DNA from: Hyphomicrobiales bacterium
GTDB lineage: Bacteria > Pseudomonadota > Alphaproteobacteria > Rhizobiales > Aestuariivirgaceae
Length of the DNA stretch: 42,920 bases
Direction of reading: 5' to 3'
NCBI GenBank assembly: GCA_027024225.1
Contig: JALVSR010000044.1
Coordinates: 1-42,920 of the forward strand
Shown here: positions 13,000 to 23,330 of the stretch, one piece after another
How the letters are laid out: each line of letters opens with the position of its first letter
How positions within the stretch are numbered: position 1 is the first letter of the stretch
Position numbers and translations under genes: made by a program
Notes under the pieces: generated by a model
What the model was told of the DNA's origin: nothing
The model's database searches: none
The model's input: only the letters and a program-made list of their open reading frames with translations

Positions 13000-13980
13000 C
13001 TATTTCACCAGTCCCTTGCGCAGCAGCCAGGGCAGCATCAGCAGGCCCGCCAGCAGCGGATGGCGGCGTTGCCAGTCGGAAAGCTCGATGCGCTCGCCGG
13101 TATGGCGCTCTATCTTGAAGGCGATGTAGTCCGCCCCGCCACTGAAGGTGAAGGCCGCCTTGGCAAGCCGCATCAGAGCCAGCAGCTTGCCCCGGCGGAT
13201 GGTGCGCCGCCAGTTCAGCCTGCCGCGCATTTTCTCAAGCGAGGCGGGAAAGGCGATGTTCTCATCCGCGCCGAACATGGCGCGCACCGCGCCGCGATAC
13301 CATTCCTCGTCCGCCGTCACGATGCTTTCCGCCCGGTCGGCGCTTTCCACCCGCAGTTCCGTGCGGTAGGTGGCGCGCAGCAAGGTCGTCCACAGTTCGC
13401 GCCAGCCGGGCCGGGGCGTCTCGCACAGGATGGCGGCGGTGGCGAGCGTGGTGAACACGGCCTGCACGATGGCGTCCTCCAGCGCCGCCGTTACCTGGTC
13501 ATCGGTCCACCAGACCAGGCGGCTGGGCTGGGCGAAACGGGCCCAGAAATAGGGATTGTCGATATCCGGCTCCAACCAGCGGCGGAACTGCGCAAGCGGC
13601 AGCACGGCATACTTGGCGCGCAGGGGGGCGCCGTCGGGGCGGGGCAGCGAGAGATAGTGGACGTTCGGCGGCAACAGGCGACAGCCGAGCCGGGCGAAGG
13701 GGTTCTTGCTGACGTGCGCAAGGTCGGTGGTGAGCGCGTAAAGATCCGCCAGGGTTTCCTGGAAGGAAGCGTCGCGCAGGGTGGAGCCATAGGCCAGCAC
13801 CGCGCGCACGCCTCGTTCGCCGCCGTGGCGTCCGGCGGCCTCTTGCGCCAGCAGGCGCAGCTCCTCCGGCGCCGGTGCCAGCAGGCGCGAACGGACGAGT
13901 GCGCGCAGGGCCGCCTCGTCGGCGATGTCCACCGGCGCGAATGGGCGCGCGGAGCGCTTCGTGCGAGATACGGTGCTCAT
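13000..13980 (-). CDS. Tam41-like phosphatidate cytidylyltransferase (nucleotidyltransferase fold)
   Basis: This 326-residue protein resembles mitochondrial Tam41/TAMM41, which makes CDP-diacylglycerol from phosphatidate and CTP. The parallel runs in order along the protein: VLAYGS (61-66) for the AYGSG nucleotidyltransferase loop; D79 and D86 in ADLYALTTD for the DF..VDD metal site; AHVSKN (88-93) for WHSKN; KYAVLPLAQF (123-132) for KYGV; WARFAQP (146-152) for AGRLQKP; and a helical region with TYRTELR (204-210) for SYSGDFRM. No transmembrane CdsA signature is present, so it would be a peripheral membrane enzyme. It overlaps the lipid kinase by ATGA, forming a kinase then cytidylyltransferase pair. 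Family assignment is from pattern recognition alone; the lipid acceptor (diacylglycerol- or ceramide-based) is not known. Confidence 0.7.
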   Translation of the reverse strand: MSTVSRTKRSARPFAPVDIADEAALRALVRSRLLAPAPEELRLLAQEAAGRHGGERGVRAVLAYGSTLRDASFQETLADLYALTTDLAHVSKNPFARLGCRLLPPNVHYLSLPRPDGAPLRAKYAVLPLAQFRRWLEPDIDNPYFWARFAQPSRLVWWTDDQVTAALEDAIVQAVFTTLATAAILCETPRPGWRELWTTLLRATYRTELRVESADRAESIVTADEEWYRGAVRAMFGADENIAFPASLEKMRGRLNWRRTIRRGKLLALMRLAKAAFTFSGGADYIAFKIERHTGERIELSDWQRRHPLLAGLLMLPWLLRKGLVK

Positions 13981-15008
13981 GCCGAAAGAAGATAGCGCAT
14001 TTGCGGGCCGCGCTCGATAACCAGTGGTTTGTCCGCGCTTTCGGGGACCATTTCCTCGCCGTCCATGGCGAAGCGAGCGGGGGTTTGGACCTCGGCGCGT
14101 TCGATGACGCGGCTTGCCATGCCGGGGGGCAGCTTGCGGCTTTCACCGCCGTAAAGCACCACCGGCAGCCAGCGGGGAATGAACGGCAACGGCCAGCCAA
14201 AGACGGACAGGCGCAAGGGCGAGGGCGCCTCTCCGCTGGCGATGCGCCGGGCGGTGGTTTCGTCAAGCCCCCAGAAAGGGCGCGCCCCAAGCACCAGCTT
14301 CCTGAGCGTGGAGGCCAGCAGGGCAACCTGCCAGCCATCGGCGAGGGGAGCGCCATCGGCCAGCACGCGCATCCGGTGGGGGCGGTCGATGCGGTGTTCG
14401 TCTTCCGGCCGGGCGGGGCGGAAGATGGCCTTCGCGCCGACGCTCAACAGGGTCAGCAGGGGCCCCAGCTGGCCGCGCATGCCGCGCCGGTTGAAGGTAT
14501 CCCGGCAATACAGGGTGGCTTCCGCCACCACCCCGGCGCCCAGGAACATCCCGTGCTGCGGGCCGCCTTTCACGTTGAGCAGGCGAACGGTGGGGCGGCT
14601 GGCAACCCGGGCGGAGGCCTGGCGCCAGCCACGTTGTCGTATCAGCCCGGCCTGTTGCGGCACCTTTTTCAGCCGCAGGCCGATGTCGGCGGCGGTCATG
14701 TTGGTGGAGCCGTGCGGCAGCAGAACCAGCAGGGGCCAGCGTTCTTGCGGCAGGCTGCTGCGTTCGGCCAGCCATGTCTGCACGTATTGAATGGTGCCAT
14801 CACCGGACGAGATGAAAATCGCTTCCGGCGGATTTTGCGCCAGTTCGGCCAGCGCCGGTTCCAGCCGGGCGAATTCGTCCAGCCGCACGATGCGCGTGCC
14901 GGCATCCGCGCGCAAGGCTTCGGCCAGCGCCAGACCGCTCCGGTTGCGGCCACCGGAGCGCGGGTTGACGATGAGCGCGGCGGCGGGTTGGCGTGGAGTG
15001 TCAGTCAT
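13977..15008 (-). CDS. Diacylglycerol/ceramide kinase-family lipid kinase
   Basis: The 343-residue protein has the DAGK catalytic fold that phosphorylates a lipid hydroxyl with ATP. Motifs are ALIVNPRSGG (11-20), the nucleotide loop ISSGDGT (66-72, with serine where GGDGT is usual), LLPHGSTNMTAADIG (96-110), which corresponds to PxGTxN, and a C-terminal FAMDGEE that carries the DGE element. The substitutions from GGDGT and GT to SGDGT and GST place it in a divergent subgroup, so diacylglycerol cannot be assumed as substrate; ceramide or another lipid alcohol is possible. It starts inside the end of the CDP-alcohol phosphatidyltransferase gene (8-nt overlap) and its stop overlaps the Tam41-like gene by ATGA, which implies fixed stoichiometry and a shared pathway. 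Confidence 0.85.
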   Translation of the reverse strand: MTDTPRQPAAALIVNPRSGGRNRSGLALAEALRADAGTRIVRLDEFARLEPALAELAQNPPEAIFISSGDGTIQYVQTWLAERSSLPQERWPLLVLLPHGSTNMTAADIGLRLKKVPQQAGLIRQRGWRQASARVASRPTVRLLNVKGGPQHGMFLGAGVVAEATLYCRDTFNRRGMRGQLGPLLTLLSVGAKAIFRPARPEDEHRIDRPHRMRVLADGAPLADGWQVALLASTLRKLVLGARPFWGLDETTARRIASGEAPSPLRLSVFGWPLPFIPRWLPVVLYGGESRKLPPGMASRVIERAEVQTPARFAMDGEEMVPESADKPLVIERGPQMRYLLSA

Positions 15009-16188
15009 GCGCCTCTTGTGCCATCCATGAGGTCAGCTTGCCATGGCGGCGCTTTTCGGCGAACGCCTGCGCCAGTTGCACCGCGTGCACCAGCAGGGAG
15101 ACGAGCGTCCAGGCGGCCACGGCGACAAGCCCCCAGTCCGGCCTGCCGACGAGCCAGAACAGCGTAAGCAGCACCAGGTTGGGGTTGCGCCGGGCGGTGA
15201 TTTCGCGAAACCAGGTGTCGAAGCGGCGCCAGATGTGGATTTCCATGCCCAGCAGGGCGATGGATATGCCCTCCATGAGCCGCTGCACCACGTAGCCGAC
15301 GATGATGACGATGAGGCTGCCCCACCACCATTCCGGCGGCAGGGGGTGGCCCGCGGTCTCGAGCCCCACCGCCCAGGCCCAGTACCAGAAGGGCGGATGA
15401 ATGAGGTCTATGCCGTGGTCGAAGATGTCGCCGAACCTGCTGGAGGTCAGCGTGGTGCGCGCCAGCTTGCCGTCCACCGTGTCAAGGAAGGTCATGAGCC
15501 AGGCCGCCAGCAGGCCCCAGCCGTATTCTCCGGCCGCGAACAGCCCGAAGGCCACCAGCACCAGCAGGAAGGAGAGGAAGGTGACCATGTTGGGCGTGAT
15601 GGAGGTGTGCTCCGCCAGCCAGCGGGTCACGTGAAAGGCTGGCCGGGGCCATAGCCGTTTGGTCACCAGATCGGTTGCGCCCTTGTAGGTGCCCATGAAC
15701 ACGCGCCATTCCTGCTCCTTGCGCTTTTCCGGCCGGAAGACGAAAGCGTAAGGCGCCTCGCGCTTGCGCAATTTCTGCTGGAAGGCGGCCTCGCCCAACC
15801 GTTGGGGGGGCGCCACCCGCCAACCCCTGGCGCGGGCGAGCTCCACGTCGCCCTCCTCCAGAACGCGGCGGGCCGTTTCCGCCTCGGCCAGGGGGACGTG
15901 CGCCAACAATGGCGCGCGCTCATCGGAGCTCAACAGTATCAGTCCCGGCCGGTTCAGGATGGCCTCCACCAATGCCGGATCCAGCACGGCGTCGGCGCGC
16001 ACCAGCACCACCGTGTCGTTTTCCGATGGCGATGCGGGAAGCTCCGCCAGGGAGCCGGCGCGCACCCCGGCGCGGGCGAAGATGCGCGTGGTGCGGCGGG
16101 CCGTGTCGAGGCCGAACAGGCGCCCGGGGGTGCCGCCGGTTATCACGAGTAGCCGCACGGGGGCTGGTTTTGATGTTTCGTGTGCCAT
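15001..16188 (-). CDS. CDP-alcohol phosphatidyltransferase with degenerate N-terminal nucleotidyltransferase domain
   Basis: The 395-residue membrane enzyme transfers a phospho-alcohol or phosphatidyl group from a CDP-activated donor. The catalytic motif is complete: D236-T-V-D239-G240-K-L-A243-R244, then G253, D257 and D261 (D-x2-D-G-x2-A-R-x8-G-x3-D-x3-D). At least five hydrophobic segments follow residue 200. Residues 1-165 look like a sugar-phosphate nucleotidyltransferase domain that has lost the GxGTRL signature, as in fused inositol-phosphate cytidylyltransferase/DIPP synthases, with a typical linker GTYKGATDLVTKRLWPRP. The start is ATG at 16188; a GTG directly before it is possible and neither has a clear ribosome site. 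It overlaps the lipid kinase by 8 nt and follows lptG by 105 nt. Substrate is unknown. Confidence 0.85.
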   Translation of the reverse strand: MAHETSKPAPVRLLVITGGTPGRLFGLDTARRTTRIFARAGVRAGSLAELPASPSENDTVVLVRADAVLDPALVEAILNRPGLILLSSDERAPLLAHVPLAEAETARRVLEEGDVELARARGWRVAPPQRLGEAAFQQKLRKREAPYAFVFRPEKRKEQEWRVFMGTYKGATDLVTKRLWPRPAFHVTRWLAEHTSITPNMVTFLSFLLVLVAFGLFAAGEYGWGLLAAWLMTFLDTVDGKLARTTLTSSRFGDIFDHGIDLIHPPFWYWAWAVGLETAGHPLPPEWWWGSLIVIIVGYVVQRLMEGISIALLGMEIHIWRRFDTWFREITARRNPNLVLLTLFWLVGRPDWGLVAVAAWTLVSLLVHAVQLAQAFAEKRRHGKLTSWMAQEAHD

Positions 16189-16293
16189 CACGTCGAGAAT
16201 GCTGAAACGAAAGCGAAAGGTGCGCGCGTGTTCGTCGCTTGTGATACCGGCATGGGGATGGTTTGTCGAGGATGGGAAAGGCCGCCTGCTGGC

Positions 16294-17370
16294 TCATGAA
16301 ACGGTTTGTGCACGCACATAGAACGCCGCGCTGATGAGCCCCAGGAGAGTGACCGGCAACCAGCCGGCCAGCCAGGCCGGAACCAGCCCCAGTTCGCCAA
16401 CGGTGAGGGATATGCCGTCGAAGATGAAAAAGGTGAATCCCACCGTGATGCCCGTCAGCAGCACCGGCACGGTGATGCCGCCGCGACGGAAGCGCACCGC
16501 CAGGGGAATGCATACGGCGATGATGAGCAATGGCACCAGCAGGTTGGCCAGCCGGCGGTGCCACCAGACCTCGTAAACGTGCACCGGGCGCAGGCCGAAT
16601 CCCTTGTTCTCGATGAAGTATCGCAGATCGGCCAGTGGCATCTCCTCCGGATCGCCGGAGCGGAATTCTTCCGACGCCAGCCGCAGCTCGCCCGCGTAGA
16701 CCAAGGTGTCCAACCGCATGTGTGGCACGGGTTCGCGCCGATAGATGACAACGTCGTGAAGCAGCCAGCGGCCGCTTTCGCGCTGGGCGCGTGCGACGTG
16801 GATCTGCTCCGTCAGCAGGCCGGTGCGGTCGCGCCGGAATATGATGATATCCTCCAGTTGGGTGGCCTTGGCGTTGGCCTTGCCGGCCCTCAATATGTCC
16901 TGGCCGGCGCGCAGCCAGATTTCGCCCTCGCGCGAAGCGCGGAGTTTCTTCGTGGCAAACTCTCCCACCCCCCAGTTCGACAGGACCCTGACCGTGGCGG
17001 GCACGATCTGATCATTGAGCAGAAACAACGCCATTCCCATGATGATTCCCATTGGCGCCAGCATGAGAAGAAGTTGCAGCGGGGTGGCGCCGGCGGCCCA
17101 GATGGGAACGATTTCGTTGCGGTAGCCCAGCTCCACCAGGGTCAGAACCATGGCCAGCAGCAGCCCCAGCACGAAGAACACGGCGGCGATGCCGGGGAAG
17201 CGCAAGAGGGCGTATTTGACCAGTTCGACGTAACTGTCGTTCTGGGCCAGGATGCTGTCCAGATTGGACAGGACTTCCAGCGTGATGACGAAAACCGAAA
17301 CGCCGAAGAGGATGAGAAGGAAACGCGCCAGCACCATGCGCGAAATCATGCGTCCCAGAATGCCCATCAT
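16294..17370 (-). CDS. lptG: LPS (or lipid) export permease LptG
   Basis: The 358-residue inner-membrane protein fits LptG, which with LptF and the LptB ATPase extracts lipopolysaccharide and passes it to LptC. It has three hydrophobic segments near the N-terminus (VLARFLLILFGVSVFVITL; the AVFFVLGLLLAMVLTL region; LLLMLAPMGIIMGMALFLL), a periplasmic beta-jellyroll middle (about 130-255), and three C-terminal segments, including LLVPLLIIAVCIPLAV. The ATG at 17370 overlaps the lptF stop by ATGA and has AGGGGG upstream; a second ATG follows directly. It is not followed by lptD-surA as in many alphaproteobacteria but by the phospholipid-type genes, so its cargo could differ from canonical LPS. 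Confidence 0.88.
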   Translation of the reverse strand: MMGILGRMISRMVLARFLLILFGVSVFVITLEVLSNLDSILAQNDSYVELVKYALLRFPGIAAVFFVLGLLLAMVLTLVELGYRNEIVPIWAAGATPLQLLLMLAPMGIIMGMALFLLNDQIVPATVRVLSNWGVGEFATKKLRASREGEIWLRAGQDILRAGKANAKATQLEDIIIFRRDRTGLLTEQIHVARAQRESGRWLLHDVVIYRREPVPHMRLDTLVYAGELRLASEEFRSGDPEEMPLADLRYFIENKGFGLRPVHVYEVWWHRRLANLLVPLLIIAVCIPLAVRFRRGGITVPVLLTGITVGFTFFIFDGISLTVGELGLVPAWLAGWLPVTLLGLISAAFYVRAQTVS

Positions 17371-18590
17371 GCCGCCCCCTGTTTCTTGCGTCGCCAGCGG
17401 GCGGGCCAGGCCCTGCGCAGGTGTTCGGCAGCCTTGCTCATGGCCAGATACACCGAATCGAAAATGTCTTCCTTGAGCGTGAAGCAACTGCGGTAATAGC
17501 GGAAGCTGGCCAGGACAAGCAACGCCACCCACGGGGCCCATATGCCCAGCCAGATGGGCAGGGCGCCGTGTCGCGCCGCCACGGATCCCTGCTGCAGCGC
17601 TTCCTGGTAGGCGATGAGAATGATCAGTCCCACGGCAAAGCGGTAGGCGCGCTGCTGGCGCCGATGGCCAATGGCGAAGGGGATGGCCAGAAATGGCAGC
17701 ACCAGGATGGTGAGAATGGACACGATGCGTCTGTGAAATTCGGCCCTGAGCTCGCGCACGCTGGCGAGTTTCAGCGGTTTGTCCAGGGTGGCGTACAGTT
17801 CCGGCAGGGTCAGCTCGCGTTCGTCCAGTCCGCGCGGGCGGAACGTGAGGGCGCTCTTGCGGCCTATGGGGGTTTCCGCACGGGAGAAGAGCTTGCTGGT
17901 GGCCTTGGGCAGTTCGCGCGCGGTGGGGTCCACCCGGCCCTTGATCTCCAGCTGGTGGCCGTGAAGCAACACCAGCAGGGGACGCGGGTCGCGCTGCTGG
18001 CGCACGAGATAGCCGGAACGCGCGGTGATGGTTCGCGTGCCCCGGTCACGCCCGTATTGTTCGAACACGAAGATGCGATAGAAGCGCTGGTCGCGGCGCT
18101 CCAGCTTGTCGACGATGAAGGTGCGGTTGCCGGTTTGCATGAACACGCCCTCCTCGGCGAGGTAGAAGACCTCGACGTTCTGAACGGCGTGCTTGAGCGC
18201 GCGGTAGGCGTAGCGGGTATAGGGCTGCAACCAGCCGAAGATGAACATGGCGAGGATGGCGATAAGCACCGACAAGGCGATCACCGGACGGGCGAGACGG
18301 TGCAGCGATATGCCGGCGGCGAGGCAGGCGTCGATCTCGGCGTTGCGCGACATCTGGTTGAAGCCGAACAGCAGCCCAAGGAAGATGGACGCCGGAATGG
18401 CCAGGCCCAGATAGTGCGGCACCAGGTAGCCGAGCATCTCGAACACCAGGCTCAACGAGCCCTTCTTGCCCAGGGTCAGATCCAGGATGCGCACGAAGCG
18501 TTCCGCCATCAGCATGAGCAGGCCTATGACAAGGGACACCAGCAGGGGCTTGCCCACCTGTCGCAGAACGTAACGGTCCAGGATCGTCAT
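17367..18590 (-). CDS. lptF: LPS (or lipid) export permease LptF
   Basis: This 407-residue protein matches LptF: start MTILDRYVLRQVGKPLLVSL, membrane segments near 20, 65 and 105, the cytoplasmic coupling helix FGFNQMSRNAEIDACLAAGI that contacts LptB, a periplasmic beta-jellyroll domain (about 145-270), and three C-terminal membrane segments. The ATG at 18590 gives the canonical N-terminus; an upstream start would add an unlikely basic leader. GGAG lies 11 nt upstream. It follows the metallophosphoesterase by 56 nt on the same strand and overlaps lptG, so phosphoesterase-lptF-lptG may be one transcript. A charged 40-residue C-terminal tail rich in Arg and Lys extends past the last membrane segment. 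Confidence 0.88.
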   Translation of the reverse strand: MTILDRYVLRQVGKPLLVSLVIGLLMLMAERFVRILDLTLGKKGSLSLVFEMLGYLVPHYLGLAIPASIFLGLLFGFNQMSRNAEIDACLAAGISLHRLARPVIALSVLIAILAMFIFGWLQPYTRYAYRALKHAVQNVEVFYLAEEGVFMQTGNRTFIVDKLERRDQRFYRIFVFEQYGRDRGTRTITARSGYLVRQQRDPRPLLVLLHGHQLEIKGRVDPTARELPKATSKLFSRAETPIGRKSALTFRPRGLDERELTLPELYATLDKPLKLASVRELRAEFHRRIVSILTILVLPFLAIPFAIGHRRQQRAYRFAVGLIILIAYQEALQQGSVAARHGALPIWLGIWAPWVALLVLASFRYYRSCFTLKEDIFDSVYLAMSKAAEHLRRAWPARWRRKKQGAA

Positions 18591-18646
18591 ACCTTGCCAA
18601 CTCCGGAAATGGCCACACGCGCGACGTGCGATTCTCCCTGGATGTA

Positions 18647-19567
18647 TCATGGGGAGCAGAGCAGGGTAAATGCCTCACGCTTTCCGAGTCCTTCCTTAAG
18701 GCCCACCTCGTATCGGGCGACATCGATCCGCCAGGTCTCCCGCGTGCGCGAGATGCGGATGTGCTGCCAGCCCGCGGGCGGCGCCTTGTGGCCCGCGGCC
18801 ATGGAGGCGGATGGAGCGGAAAGCACATGCATGAGGCGCGTGTCTCTTCCGGCCGGGTCCGCGATGGGCATTTCGTGGCGGGTCCAGCGATGGGTATGGC
18901 CAAACAACACAAGTTCCGCGCCGGCTTCGGCCAGCACTTGCGCCAGTGCGGGAGCGTCCTTCAACGCCTTGCGGGGATTGGCGTTCAGCGCCGGCAGGGG
19001 AGGGTGGTGCACCAGAACCACGCGGCAAAGCCCCCGTTGTCCGCAGTCGCGCAGTATCCTTTCCAGCCGTTGCAACTGCCGCTCGCCCAGTCGGCCGGAA
19101 GCCTCGCGCCAGGGGGCGGCGTAGGCCGAGTTGAGCCCGATGAGCGCCACGTCGCCCACCTGGCGCACGAAGGGAAAGGCCGTGGCATCGCGGATGTCGG
19201 CATTGGCCATCCAGGGGGCGAGCGTGTCTCCGGCGATGCGGCCGGCCGCGGCCACGTAATAATCATGATTGCCAGGGACGAGGGTAGTTCCGCTAAAGGA
19301 TTCCAGGCCTTCGAGCCAGGCGCGCGCGGCGGCGAATTCGCCGTGGGTGGAGATGTTCACCAGATCACCCGTGATGACCAGGTGCGCCCGGGGCGCCTTC
19401 TTGCGAATGTCATCAAGCACGGCGGCCAGCACTTCCGGCCGGTGCATTCGGCGGCGGCGGAGGGTCCACGACAGCCAGCCTAGAATGCGCTTGCCCAGCA
19501 GTTCCCGCGGGCGCGTAGCCACCAGGGGCAGGTGTGGGTCGGTGATGTGGGCCAGTTCGATGGTCAT
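18647..19567 (-). CDS. Calcineurin-like metallophosphoesterase
   Basis: The 306-residue protein has the full set of dimetal phosphoesterase motifs: HITDPHL (D-x-H) at the N-terminus, ITGDLVN, VPGNHDYY, VLVHHPP and FGHTH. The closest recognisable group is the class III cyclic-nucleotide phosphodiesterase (CpdA-like) and related lipid phosphohydrolases; substrate cannot be assigned. No signal peptide or membrane segment is seen. The ATG at 19567 is chosen because the first conserved strand begins directly after it; ATG at 19579 is an alternative. It heads a same-strand run with lptF, lptG and the lipid genes and is divergent from the nucleotidyltransferase gene, so a role in lipid-headgroup turnover is possible but only inferred from position. 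Confidence 0.85.
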   Translation of the reverse strand: MTIELAHITDPHLPLVATRPRELLGKRILGWLSWTLRRRRMHRPEVLAAVLDDIRKKAPRAHLVITGDLVNISTHGEFAAARAWLEGLESFSGTTLVPGNHDYYVAAAGRIAGDTLAPWMANADIRDATAFPFVRQVGDVALIGLNSAYAAPWREASGRLGERQLQRLERILRDCGQRGLCRVVLVHHPPLPALNANPRKALKDAPALAQVLAEAGAELVLFGHTHRWTRHEMPIADPAGRDTRLMHVLSAPSASMAAGHKAPPAGWQHIRISRTRETWRIDVARYEVGLKEGLGKREAFTLLCSP

Positions 19568-19748
19568 GGATTTCCGCATTCGCGCATACCGGCGGGCGCT
19601 TGGCATTGACGACGCCGGCAAATGTTGCCATTGCAGGAATGGTCACATGCCGTGGCCACACGCTGGTATGCCATTTGTTCACGCGCCTGACTGTATGCAA
19701 GGCGGGAAGCGCGCAAGTCAAACCCGCATTTCCGGGAGAAGGTTTTTC

Positions 19749-20516
19749 GTGAAGGCCATCATTCTTTCCGCAGGGCAGGGCAGCCGCCTGTTGCCATTGA
19801 CCCAGGACAGGCCGAAGGCGCTGTTGGATATTCATGGTCAAACGCTCATCGGTCGCCAGATCGACGCGCTGAGCGAGGCCGGGGTGCGCACCTTCGTGGT
19901 GGTGACCGGTTTCAGGCCCGAGTTGATGGAAGAGGCGCTGGAACGCATCGGGCGGCGCAACGGGGTGAATATCCGGCTGATCCACAACCCCTTTTACGCC
20001 GTGGCCGACAATCTGGCCAGTTGCTGGATGGCGCGGGCGGAAATGGATGCCGATTTCATTCAGGTCAATGGCGACAATGTCTTTCGCGCCGAGCTGGTGA
20101 AGGCCCTGCTGGCCGTCAACGATGCCCCGGTGAGCGCGGCCGTTGCGCGCAAGCAGTCCTATGACGCCGATGACATGAAGGTCGTGGAAAGGGGGGGCAT
20201 TCTGCGGCGTATCGGCAAGAACCTCCCCCTGGCGGAAGTGAATGCGGAAGCACTGGGATTTTACGTGTTTCGCGGGCAGGGCGTGATCCGGTATCGCGAG
20301 ACACTGGAGCGCATGATACGCGAGCCGGACGGCCTGCAACAGTGGTTTCCCGCCGCCATCGACCGGCTGGCGAAAAGCGTGCGGGTAAGGGCGGTGGACC
20401 TGAGTGGGCACGAGTGGTGCGAAGTGGATTATCCTACCGATCTGAAGCTGGCCAACGAGCTGGCCGCGCGCTGGGATGCGCAACGCCGTCGCCCGCGGCT
20501 GGTGCATCCGTCCTGA
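19749..20516 (+). CDS. NTP-transferase family nucleotidyltransferase (LicC/inositol-phosphate cytidylyltransferase-like)
   Basis: The 255-residue protein is a Rossmann-like NTP transferase. It opens with KAIILSAGQGSRLLPLTQDR, the nucleotide-binding GxGxRL loop followed by RPKALL. FYAVADNLASCWMA and FIQVNGDNVF carry the metal-binding aspartate, and HEWCEVDYPTDLK near the end closes the family pattern. These features point to small-alcohol-phosphate cytidylyltransferases such as LicC (phosphocholine) or inositol-1-phosphate cytidylyltransferase rather than glucose-1-phosphate enzymes. The start is GTG at 19749 with a strong GGGAGAAGG 6 nt upstream. It is divergent from the phosphoesterase-lptFG-lipid gene run, whose CDP-alcohol phosphatidyltransferase has a broken nucleotidyltransferase domain, so it may supply the CDP-activated headgroup. 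Confidence 0.78.
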   Translation: MKAIILSAGQGSRLLPLTQDRPKALLDIHGQTLIGRQIDALSEAGVRTFVVVTGFRPELMEEALERIGRRNGVNIRLIHNPFYAVADNLASCWMARAEMDADFIQVNGDNVFRAELVKALLAVNDAPVSAAVARKQSYDADDMKVVERGGILRRIGKNLPLAEVNAEALGFYVFRGQGVIRYRETLERMIREPDGLQQWFPAAIDRLAKSVRVRAVDLSGHEWCEVDYPTDLKLANELAARWDAQRRRPRLVHPS

Positions 20517-20537: not shown

Positions 20538-21965
20538 TCAGGCCGGCAGGGTGATGATCACGCGCAGGCCACCGTGTGGCGAATCGGCCAGCTCCACCTC
20601 GCCGCCGTGCGTATGCACGATGTCGCGCACGATGGCGAGCCCCAGGCCGGTGCCGGCATTGTCCTGGTTGCGGGCGTTGTCCAGCCTGGTGAACGGGCGG
20701 AAAGCGTCCTTGCGGTATTCGGGGGCGATGCCCGGACCATCATCATCGATGATGATGCGTATGTGATTTGCTCCTTTTTCAACCCGCACGTCTATGCGTT
20801 TGCGCGCATGACGCACGGCGTTTTCCAGCACGTTCAGCAGCGCGCGTTTCAGCGCCCCGGGGCGCACCGACAGACGCAGCCGCCGATCTTGGCAATGCAG
20901 CCGGATGTCGTGACCGGAAGCCGGCATGCGCCGCAGGGCTTCCTCCAGCAATTCGCACAGATCCTGCTCGGTGGCGGGTTCCGCCTCCGCTCCGCGCACG
21001 AAATCCATGTAGCCTTGCAGCATGTGCTGCATTTCGTCCACGTCGTGTTTCAGGGCCTCGATGTGTTCCCGGTCGCCATCGAGCAGGGACAGTTCCAGGC
21101 GGAAGCGCGTGAGAATGGTCCGCAAATCGTGTGAAATGCCGGCCAGCATGGCGGCGCGCTGCTCCAGGTGGCGCTCGATGCGTTCCTTCATGACCAGGAA
21201 CGACTTCCAGGCGGTGCGCACCTCCAGCGCCCCGCGTACGCGCGTGCTGGCGACCGCGCGACCCTTGCCGAAATCTTGCATGGCCTGCGCCAGGTCGATG
21301 ATGGGTTCGATTTGCTTGCGCAGGAACAGGATGGCCACTCCGATCAGGATGGCGGCGGCGATGACGATCCACAACAGCAGCAAGGGGGTGGAAGAGGCAT
21401 AGACCCTGTCGCGCGGGGGACGGAAATGAAACACCAGATCCTGGTCCACCAGGATGCGCACGTCCACCCGATCGGGTTGGCTGGCGTCAATCCAGAACGG
21501 CCGGCCGGGCGCAAAGCGGACCATGTACTTGGCCAGCCGGTAATGGAGGATGGAATACCACGGATGCGGCTTTATCGGAGGCAGGGAGCCACGTTCTATG
21601 GAAAACCCGATGTCGAGCGTTTCCTCCACCATCCTTTCGAGCCGTTTCAGGGCCTGAGGCGTCTTGGGGCCGTTGTCGTAGAGCCTGATCACCAGTCCCA
21701 CGTCACGCCCGAAACTCTTGGACAGGCGCTTCGTGACCTCCTCCCAGTGGCGTTCCAGCACGATGCCGATGATCACCAGCATCAAGAGCAACACCGGCAG
21801 GACCACGATGAGCAGGGCGCGGCGATAAAGGTCGCGCGGTAGATGCCGCTCCAGGAAACGGTTGAACCGCCACCAGAGCAACGGCCAGCCGCTGTCGGGA
21901 CGCGGTGGCGGGGCGAAGGCATCGTCGCTGGCCTGCAGGCGGATCTTTTTTCTCGCGAACTTCAT
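20538..21965 (-). CDS. EnvZ-type sensor histidine kinase
   Basis: The 475-residue membrane kinase has a cytoplasmic N-tail, a first membrane segment (about 50-70), a periplasmic sensor of about 120 residues, and a second segment (about 193-215). A HAMP domain follows, then a DHp domain with phosphoacceptor H279 in GISHDLRTILTRFRLE, and a HATPase domain with N-box LLNVLENAVRHA, G1 DDDGPGI and G2 GTGLGLAI. This is the EnvZ/OmpR arrangement. Its ATG overlaps the stop of the response regulator gene by ATGA, so it is the cognate kinase. It stands with a MarR gene upstream, as in the petP-petR layout known from Rhodobacter. The signal sensed is not known. Confidence 0.9.
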   Translation of the reverse strand: MKFARKKIRLQASDDAFAPPPRPDSGWPLLWWRFNRFLERHLPRDLYRRALLIVVLPVLLLMLVIIGIVLERHWEEVTKRLSKSFGRDVGLVIRLYDNGPKTPQALKRLERMVEETLDIGFSIERGSLPPIKPHPWYSILHYRLAKYMVRFAPGRPFWIDASQPDRVDVRILVDQDLVFHFRPPRDRVYASSTPLLLLWIVIAAAILIGVAILFLRKQIEPIIDLAQAMQDFGKGRAVASTRVRGALEVRTAWKSFLVMKERIERHLEQRAAMLAGISHDLRTILTRFRLELSLLDGDREHIEALKHDVDEMQHMLQGYMDFVRGAEAEPATEQDLCELLEEALRRMPASGHDIRLHCQDRRLRLSVRPGALKRALLNVLENAVRHARKRIDVRVEKGANHIRIIIDDDGPGIAPEYRKDAFRPFTRLDNARNQDNAGTGLGLAIVRDIVHTHGGEVELADSPHGGLRVIITLPA

Positions 21966-22681
21966 TGGTTCCGCGCACTTTCACCCGGTGCGGGCGTTGT
22001 GTTCAGCATGTAGCCCCGCCCGCGCACGGTGCGAATGAGCTTCGGGTTTGCGGGATCGTCCTCCACCTTGCGGCGCAGGCGGGCAATCTCCACATCCACG
22101 GTGCGCGGCGCCCCGCCGCCGGCGGGCGCAAGCAGTTCTTCGCGTGGTACCGGTTCTCCGGCGCGGCGGGCCAGCAGGCGCAGAATTTCGCGTTCGCGTC
22201 CGGTCAATTTCAGCAATGCGCCATCGCGCCGCAATTCGCCGGTTACGGCATCCAGCGTGTAGGCGCCCAATTGCAACTGCCGCGCATCGTGCGGCGGCCG
22301 GTCTTGTGGCCGGTGACGGCGCAGCAGGGCCTTCAGCCGCAGCAACAGTTCTTCCGGATCGAAGGGCTTTGGCAGGTAGTCGTCGCAGCCGGCCGTCAGG
22401 CCGGCGATGCGATCGGACGTTTCCCCCAGGGCGGAAAGCAGGAGAATGGGAACGTTCGCGTTGGTCTCGCGCAGGCTGCGGGTGAGAGAAAGGCCGTCTT
22501 CTCCGGGCATCATGATATCCAGCACCAGGGCGTCGAAAACCAGCGCGTGCATGCGGGCGCGGGCGTCGGCCGCGTCGCTTGCGGTGGACACGCGAAAACC
22601 ATGACGGCGCAGAAAGTTGCGCAACAGGTCGCGGATGCGGGTATCGTCATCCACGATCAGCACATGGGGCGCCTCGTCCAT
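21962..22681 (-). CDS. OmpR-family response regulator (PetR-like)
   Basis: The 239-residue regulator has a receiver domain with VLIVDDDTRIRDLL, phospho-acceptor D55 in LVLDIMMPGEDGLSL and K in LPKPFDPEELL. A C-terminal winged helix follows, with LTGREREILRLLARRAGEPV and TVDVEIARLRRKVEDDPANP. The ATG at 22681 has GGAGGGCGGAG immediately upstream and lies inside the end of the MarR gene (35-nt overlap), implying translational coupling. The order MarR, OmpR-type regulator, kinase matches petP-petR of Rhodobacter, where PetR is linked to cytochrome bc1 expression; whether that role holds here is inference. Confidence 0.9.
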   Translation of the reverse strand: MDEAPHVLIVDDDTRIRDLLRNFLRRHGFRVSTASDAADARARMHALVFDALVLDIMMPGEDGLSLTRSLRETNANVPILLLSALGETSDRIAGLTAGCDDYLPKPFDPEELLLRLKALLRRHRPQDRPPHDARQLQLGAYTLDAVTGELRRDGALLKLTGREREILRLLARRAGEPVPREELLAPAGGGAPRTVDVEIARLRRKVEDDPANPKLIRTVRGRGYMLNTTPAPGESARNQ

Positions 22682-23330
22682 CTCCGCCCTCCGTCACAGA
22701 TGTCTCCTCGCCGCTTCCGGTCGCGGTTTTTCGTGATGTCGCAGAATGCGGCAAGCCGCACAGGGCGGCCACATGATGGCGGTCGGCCTCGTCCACCAGG
22801 CCCAGCAACATATGCGCGAAGGTCTCTCGCGCACCGTCTCCGGCGTCGGCGAGCGCGGCTCGAACCCGGGCGATCTGCGGAGCCTCCAGCCGCTCCAGCA
22901 GTCTTTGACCGGCCGGGGTCAGGTGCAGCAGCCGCTGGCGGCGGTCGGTGGTGCCTTCTTCCTGGACCACGTAGCCCCGCTCCAGCAATTCGCGCAACAC
23001 CCGGCCCAGGCTCTGCTTGGTGATGCGCAGGATGGCCAGCAATTCCGACACGCGCAGGCCCGGATGGCGGCCGATGAAATGCAGCACCCGGTGGTGCGCC
23101 CGGCCAAAGCCCAGTTCGGCCAGCATGGCGTCCGGCTCGGCGATGAAGTCGCGGTAGGCGAAAAACAGAAGCTCCATCAGCGGCATGACATCGTGGCCGA
23201 ATCCTGCCGCCTCGCGCTCCGGGGCGGGGGGGTCTCGTCGCGAAACCGATGCGGCAGTGGCGGCGTCGGCGTCAGCCTCGGCGCTGGCGGAGAATGGCGC
23301 TTTTTTCGTGCCGCTGGCGGTGGCGTCCAT
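22647..23330 (-). CDS. MarR-family transcriptional regulator (PetP-like)
   Basis: This 227-residue protein has a MarR winged helix in its middle (about 50-170): HHRVLHFIGRHPGLRVSELL, LRITKQSLGRVLRELLERGY for the recognition helix, and EEGTTDRRQRLLHLTPAG for the wing. The N-terminal 45 residues and C-terminal 25 are low-complexity (Ala/Asp/Ser and Gly/Thr) and unlike the family core; the C-terminal tail is the part that overlaps the response regulator gene, so the overlap may have been created by readthrough into it. It is divergent from ilvE across 151 nt that contain a GTCA-TAT-TGAC inverted repeat, a reasonable operator. The ribosome site at 23330 is weak. Confidence 0.85.
   Translation of the reverse strand: MDATASGTKKAPFSASAEADADAATAASVSRRDPPAPEREAAGFGHDVMPLMELLFFAYRDFIAEPDAMLAELGFGRAHHRVLHFIGRHPGLRVSELLAILRITKQSLGRVLRELLERGYVVQEEGTTDRRQRLLHLTPAGQRLLERLEAPQIARVRAALADAGDGARETFAHMLLGLVDEADRHHVAALCGLPHSATSRKTATGSGEETSVTEGGDGRGAPCADRG

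Follow-up and report, generated by a model that had tools for sequence, protein, structure and literature searches.

Which lipid is made, and by what route is it exported, by a compact set of genes in an alphaproteobacterium of the family Aestuariivirgaceae? The stretch analyzed here, called the window, is the 42,920 nucleotides of contig JALVSR010000044.1 (GenBank assembly GCA_027024225.1, Hyphomicrobiales bacterium). Between positions 13000 and 20516, six genes on the minus strand encode a phosphoesterase, the permease proteins LptF and LptG, a CDP-alcohol phosphatidyltransferase, a lipid kinase and a nucleotidyltransferase-like protein, and a seventh gene for a cytidylyltransferase diverges from them. 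A preliminary description of this DNA had proposed one route to an unusual anionic lipid that LptFG may export, with glycerolipid chemistry as the favored version and a sphingolipid as a side remark. We consider it likely, at a probability of about 0.8, that the module joins the synthesis of a sphingolipid headgroup to an LptF/LptG pair feeding the product into the Lpt bridge, and that an anionic phosphosphingolipid stands in for lipopolysaccharide (LPS).

The phosphosphingolipid cluster of Caulobacter crescentus spans CC_1152 to CC_1168 (PMC11324152, PMC12275187, PMC10331486). The locus of Caulobacter vibrioides DSM 9893 was found by an exact scan with the published cpgD primer (PMC12275187) and then read. 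Its order is AasR, CerR, AcpR, Spt, CpgC, CpgB, CpgA, phosphoesterase, HIT protein, LptF2, LptG2, CerS, CC_1153 (a MobA-like nucleotidyltransferase) and CpgD. The window proteins were compared with this locus by BLASTP. The protein encoded at 13000 to 13980 is 39% identical over 304 amino acids to CpgC (CC_1161) and has the same gene position. The DAGK-type lipid kinase next to it (13977 to 15008; Pfam DAGK_cat, 3.4e-11), a predicted ceramide kinase, is also in the position of its counterpart, with 28% identity over 299 amino acids to CpgB. The CDP-alcohol phosphatidyltransferase (15001 to 16191; PF01066, 6.9e-12), which carries an extra N-terminal part, matches CpgA at 46% over 375 amino acids. 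LptG (16294 to 17370; PF03739, 5.4e-53) and LptF (17367 to 18590; PF03739, 1.3e-67) are 23% and 32% identical to LptG2 and LptF2, respectively. The metallophosphoesterase (18647 to 19567; Pfam Metallophos, 8.6e-14), the CC_1158 orthologue, is 41% identical over 270 amino acids to the C. vibrioides gene product encoded between cpgA and lptF2. On the plus strand, the divergent gene (19749 to 20516) encodes a predicted CTP:phosphoglycerate cytidylyltransferase with 44% identity over 236 amino acids to CpgD. By these matches, the window genes are gene-by-gene counterparts of cpgC, cpgB, cpgA, lptG2, lptF2, CC_1158 and cpgD.

The local orders cpgA-cpgB-cpgC and lptF-lptG are also those of Caulobacter. 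Unlike in Caulobacter, cpgD of the window adjoins the phosphoesterase gene and is not at the far end of the cluster, the phosphoesterase, lptFG and cpgA-B-C genes are all on one strand, and the HIT-family gene is missing. The gene positions and strands given earlier were confirmed, with Pfam naming the divergent gene and every minus-strand gene but cpgC, and the overlaps were exact: 4 nucleotides for lptF/lptG (17367 to 17370), 8 for phosphatidyltransferase/kinase (15001 to 15008) and 4 for kinase/cpgC (13977 to 13980).

Several of these enzymes have been characterized in Caulobacter. CpgB was shown to be a ceramide kinase (PMC10331486), and the window kinase conserves the GDGT and DGE motifs. 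Across the window's family the GGDGT motif is mostly S[SA]GDGT, a variant that runs through the lineage and is not present in Caulobacter CpgB. CpgD was shown to be a CTP:phosphoglycerate cytidylyltransferase making CDP-glycerate (PMC12275187), and its structures show contacts by Arg16, Asn90, Thr88, Thr93, Gly111 and Trp201 (PMC13228409). In the window protein, R16, K26, D112, N90, G111 and W201 are conserved, Thr93 is replaced by Ser, and Ala stands in place of Thr88, a residue that makes its contact through the backbone. Olea-Ozuna and colleagues suggested CC_1159 (CpgA) as a CDP-alcohol transferase and CC_1161 (CpgC) as the nucleotide activator of ceramide-1-phosphate (PMC11324152), and window CpgA has the full DxxDGxxAR(8x)GxxxDxxxD motif. 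Since cpgB without cpgA still yields ceramide phosphoglycerate (CPG) in Caulobacter, CpgA is not the sole transferase there. CC_1158 is described as a phosphoesterase and contributes to CPG2 formation in Caulobacter. According to the Caulobacter paper, several relatives are without CC_1158; in contrast, a phosphoesterase of this type is usually present in the clusters compared here.

The CpgC counterpart had been labeled Tam41-like in the preliminary description. It has no Pfam or NCBIfam match, so this label stands on weaker evidence than the others, and the Tam41 Pfam family matches neither window CpgC, Caulobacter CpgC nor seven further members. What the label draws on is the InterPro CDP-DAG-synthase-like domain noted for CC_1161 (PMC11324152) together with weak matches: Polbeta, NTP_transf_2 and AsnC in Pfam, all below cut-off. 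In a profile search of PDB, a generic nucleotidyltransferase domain (E = 0.0016) was all that matched. The family has invariant YGS...D, K123, W.R..QP, E.R.E and RH elements, and the YGS...D motif and the weak domain matches agree with a putative nucleotidyltransferase.

The remainder of a sphingolipid pathway is encoded elsewhere in the same genome. The serine palmitoyltransferase that the preliminary description had suggested looking for is present on contig C37, at 575.8 bits against an NCBIfam equivalog cut-off of 500, and genes for an acyl carrier protein (AcpR) and a CerR-like reductase adjoin spt. CerS is encoded on contig C53, shares 44% identity with its Caulobacter counterpart and has a CC_1153 homologue alongside. 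Thus, as in Caulobacter, the ceramide genes are in the same genome, but here they are on other contigs. CerS was found in 34 of the 36 genomes of the window's family. Together, the CpgA to CpgD matches, the local order and the presence of Spt bear out the sphingolipid, or cpgABC, version that had been offered only as a side remark.

We investigated the conservation of the module in a sample of 60 related genomes, 36 from the window's family and 24 others of the same order. The CDP-alcohol transferase, used as a query, had strong matches in 28 of the 60. Over about 20 kb, the order nucleotidyltransferase (divergent)-phosphoesterase-LptF-LptG-CDP-alcohol transferase-kinase-CpgC-like was intact in all 14 relatives compared. 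This recurrence is far beyond chance and marks the seven-gene set as one evolutionary unit; the co-occurrence of the genes has held up, and so has the idea of a single route, kept across relatives, to an anionic lipid of an unusual kind. Spt, AcpR and CerR are encoded in the same stretch as the module in 10 of the 14 and CerS in 11, and therefore the neighborhood itself points to a sphingolipid. A second CDP-alcohol transferase gene is present in several clusters (L094, L098, L101, L104), but neither the C. vibrioides cluster nor that of the window showed one.

A reduced form of the cluster occurs in six LPS-less relatives, G023, G027 and G031 (loci L130, L131 and L146) and G013, G028 and G032 (loci L132, L136 and L169). 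In these, the CpgA, CpgC and CpgD genes are absent and the kinase is present or not, yet the phosphoesterase and the Lpt permease proteins are still encoded between cerS and spt-acpR-cerR-aasR (in G028 only LptG was recovered). Because LptFG stays after the loss of CpgA, CpgC and CpgD, the permease pair follows ceramide synthesis and not a particular headgroup. The outer-leaflet lipid of these relatives is probably a different sphingolipid.

The window's genome has a single LptF/LptG pair, both genes being in the window; a search for a second pair elsewhere in the genome, another check proposed from the sequence, found none. Trees were built from 54 LptF and 57 LptG rows, leaving out L152, L155, L164, L167 and L173; in quick trees, L155, with its LptF and LptG swapped, had caused distortion, as had long rows such as L173. 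In each tree, one branch with 100/100 support splits all lptD-linked rows from all ceramide-cluster rows, and the ceramide-cluster clade holds the window pair, Caulobacter LptF2/LptG2 and plasmid copies. By coordinates, the pair of LPS-bearing relatives mostly adjoins lptD. Its placement in the trees assigns the window pair to the sphingolipid-cluster type, and the genome has no pair of the LPS type. The scores of window LptF (218.5 against 230) and LptG (185.3 against 240) are below the NCBIfam equivalog cut-offs. The window pair shares the Pfam family and the pair architecture of the LPS permease of the lptF-lptG-lptD operon; it differs from that permease in its separate clade, in not lying beside lptD, and in a genome with no lpxC or waaA. 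The export link proposed earlier is plausible.

Two other arrangements of such permeases were seen. In G013, G020, G028 and G032 (L133, L135, L138 and L149), an LptF-like permease of a third kind is encoded on its own, with no LptG partner; in L138 it adjoins glycosyltransferase-like and ABC-transporter-like genes. In an LPS-bearing relative, a divergent LptF/LptG pair is directly beside a CerS-like gene (38% identity; L166, G054:C1:204301-209000), perhaps another sphingolipid-export arrangement.

The preliminary description had not foreseen the absence of LPS genes. LpxC was not found in the window's genome, nor above cut-off in any of the 36 family genomes (one sub-threshold match of 20.6 bits, in G018), and WaaA was found in none of the 36, the window's genome included. 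Among the 24 other sampled genomes of the order, 22 have LpxC and 19 have WaaA. The two LpxC-less genomes outside the family, G039 and G049, both carry the module. Counted by family, the module is present in 3 of 3 families without LpxC against 1 of 22 with it (Fisher p = 0.0017, the families being perhaps not fully independent). Only G041 has both LpxC and the module; of its two LptFG pairs, one adjoins lptD and the other belongs to the module. LptD is present in 34 of the 36 genomes of the family. The family therefore appears to have lost LPS on present gene content while keeping LptD. Caulobacter differs in having kept LPS and a first LptFG set, with LptF2/LptG2 as second copies, while the window's genome is without LPS markers and has one pair. 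Another likeness is to the LPS-free, sphingolipid-bearing outer membrane of Sphingomonas (PMC11324152): LPS synthesis markers are missing and ceramide synthesis is present. Unlike in Sphingomonas, the predicted headgroup in the window is phosphoglycerate, and the genes are for the most part in a cluster with LptFG, not scattered as they are in Sphingomonas wittichii and Zymomonas mobilis.

Related clusters were also found on plasmids. Plasmid pDCB2 of the beta-proteobacterium Diaphorobacter sp. JS3051 (NZ_CP065408.1, 41-69 kb; L171/L172), a conjugative IncP plasmid, carries Spt-, AcpR-, AasR-, CerS- and CpgD-like genes, two CDP-alcohol transferase genes and a sphingolipid-type LptF/LptG pair, with a Tn3 transposase and genes for mercury and arsenic at the borders. 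This looks like a whole ceramide phosphoglycerate set; as a self-transmissible envelope-lipid module, it would merit separate study. On the IncP-type plasmid pPNP1 of Pseudomonas sp. JS425 (NZ_CP073662.1; L173), a related cluster near a class 1 integron has CpgD-like, CDP-alcohol transferase, phosphoesterase, kinase, LptF/LptG, AasR-, CerR-, AcpR- and Spt-like genes, with very divergent LptF/LptG. Plasmid p1 of Roseomonas mucosa (NZ_CP147881.1, about 360 kb; L170) has a Caulobacter-like cluster with LptF/LptG.

From these data a pathway can be proposed. Spt, AcpR, CerR and CerS, whose genes are on two other contigs, would make ceramide, and CpgB would phosphorylate it to ceramide-1-phosphate, as shown biochemically in Caulobacter. 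By homology, CpgC may then activate ceramide-1-phosphate with CTP to CDP-ceramide; an NDP-activated ceramide was earlier suggested for Caulobacter. Addition of glycerate or phosphoglycerate would give ceramide phosphoglycerate. CpgD would make CDP-glycerate from CTP and phosphoglycerate, a reaction shown in Caulobacter, and CpgA, as a CDP-alcohol phosphotransferase, may use it to add a second phosphoglycerate, after which the phosphoesterase may trim the product; both roles are predicted from homology. Finally, gene linkage, phylogeny and LPS loss suggest that the sphingolipid-type LptF/LptG would take the lipid out of the inner membrane and hand it on to LptD. Because the family is without key lipid A genes, we predict that this is one of the main anionic lipids in the outer leaflet.

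The glycerolipid chemistry of the preliminary description, in which phosphatidate from a diacylglycerol kinase is converted to CDP-diacylglycerol by the Tam41-like protein and then, by the CDP-alcohol transferase, to an unusual glycerophospholipid for export by LptFG, fits the domain names (DAGK_cat, CDP-OH_P_transf) and the InterPro domain of CC_1161. Every protein, however, is syntenic with and homologous to a Caulobacter ceramide phosphoglycerate enzyme, the proteins match CpgB, CpgC, CpgA and CpgD, the spt, cerR, acpR, aasR and cerS genes adjoin the module in relatives, and the nucleotidyltransferase keeps the CpgD active site. We rejected this route as very improbable, its support being limited to domain names. 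It is also unlikely, if less so, that the headgroup module works as proposed next to an LptF/LptG that is a general export pair, with the sphingolipid leaving by another route, such as the flippase or MsbA-type transporters of related clusters. The transport route was stated as unknown in the Caulobacter paper (PMC11324152) and LptD is retained in the family, which leaves room for such a pair; yet there is apparently no LPS for it to carry, its 100/100 clade was seen only in ceramide clusters, and LptF/LptG stay with the ceramide genes after headgroup gene loss and travel with them onto a beta-proteobacterial plasmid. The alternative we take most seriously, though we still think it doubtful, is a related but different phosphosphingolipid, for example ceramide phosphoglycerate only or one with another CDP-alcohol headgroup, made through a change of substrate in the CpgD-like enzyme or CpgA. 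CpgD-like enzymes are part of an enzyme family whose substrates include phosphocholine, phosphosugars and phosphoglutamine (PMC12275187), window CpgD is 44% identical with Ser for Caulobacter Thr93, and the HIT-family gene is missing; against this, R16, K26, D112, N90, G111 and W201 of CpgD are conserved and the genome has a CC_1153 homologue.

Several points count against the proposed phosphosphingolipid module and its export. The enzymes are identified by homology, and the cargo and the lipid itself are predicted. CpgB is only 28% identical to its counterpart, so lipid specificity is carried by context, and CpgC is without a Pfam family and without a useful fold, its single-sequence structure model (pLDDT 38) being too poor for use. 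The step joining glycerate has no assigned enzyme, and Caulobacter cells with cpgB but without cpgA still make CPG. AasR, beside spt in relatives, was not found within 20 kb around spt in the window's genome, the rest of which was not searched. The absence of LPS is read from two marker families (LpxC and WaaA) in mostly draft genomes. LptD was not found in the window's assembly; since all 10 same-genus genomes have it, a gap in the draft is the simplest reading.

The intergenic region at 19568 to 19748, from which the phosphoesterase gene and cpgD diverge, is the probable site of both promoters. The start of cpgD is most likely the conserved GTG at 19749, with a purine-rich, ribosome-binding-like stretch ahead of it. 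Beyond cpgD, on the opposite strand (20538-23330), are genes for a histidine kinase, a response regulator and a MarR-type regulator, kept there in the same-genus genome G007, and these may regulate the module. Elsewhere in the window's genome (L061:7981-9537, G000:C137), a nucleotidyltransferase and a CDP-alcohol transferase are joined in a single 518-amino-acid protein; its gene adjoins inositol monophosphatase-like and inositol-3-phosphate synthase-like genes, and the locus is probably an inositol phosphodiester or inositol-lipid route.

The kinds of enzymes in this module are known; what is new is the combined picture across the family: LPS genes are absent, the only LptFG is of the sphingolipid type, and LptD has been kept. 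The phylogenetic split provides a sequence rule for separating the sphingolipid type of LptF/LptG from the LPS type, two kinds that annotation at present does not distinguish, and CpgC is left as a well-defined protein in which CDP-ceramide synthesis can be assayed. The route of sphingolipids to the bacterial outer membrane has been stated as unknown (PMC11324152). A family without LPS, with one LptF/LptG pair of a distinct clade and with LptD kept, is a clean natural case for sphingolipid transport, because there is no competing LPS cargo. With the balance tilting only slightly in favor, we suggest that the family may have replaced LPS by a phosphosphingolipid, that the lptD-linked LPS-type LptF/LptG was lost together with lpxC and waaA, and that the sphingolipid-type pair alone, with the retained LptD, would now build the outer leaflet.

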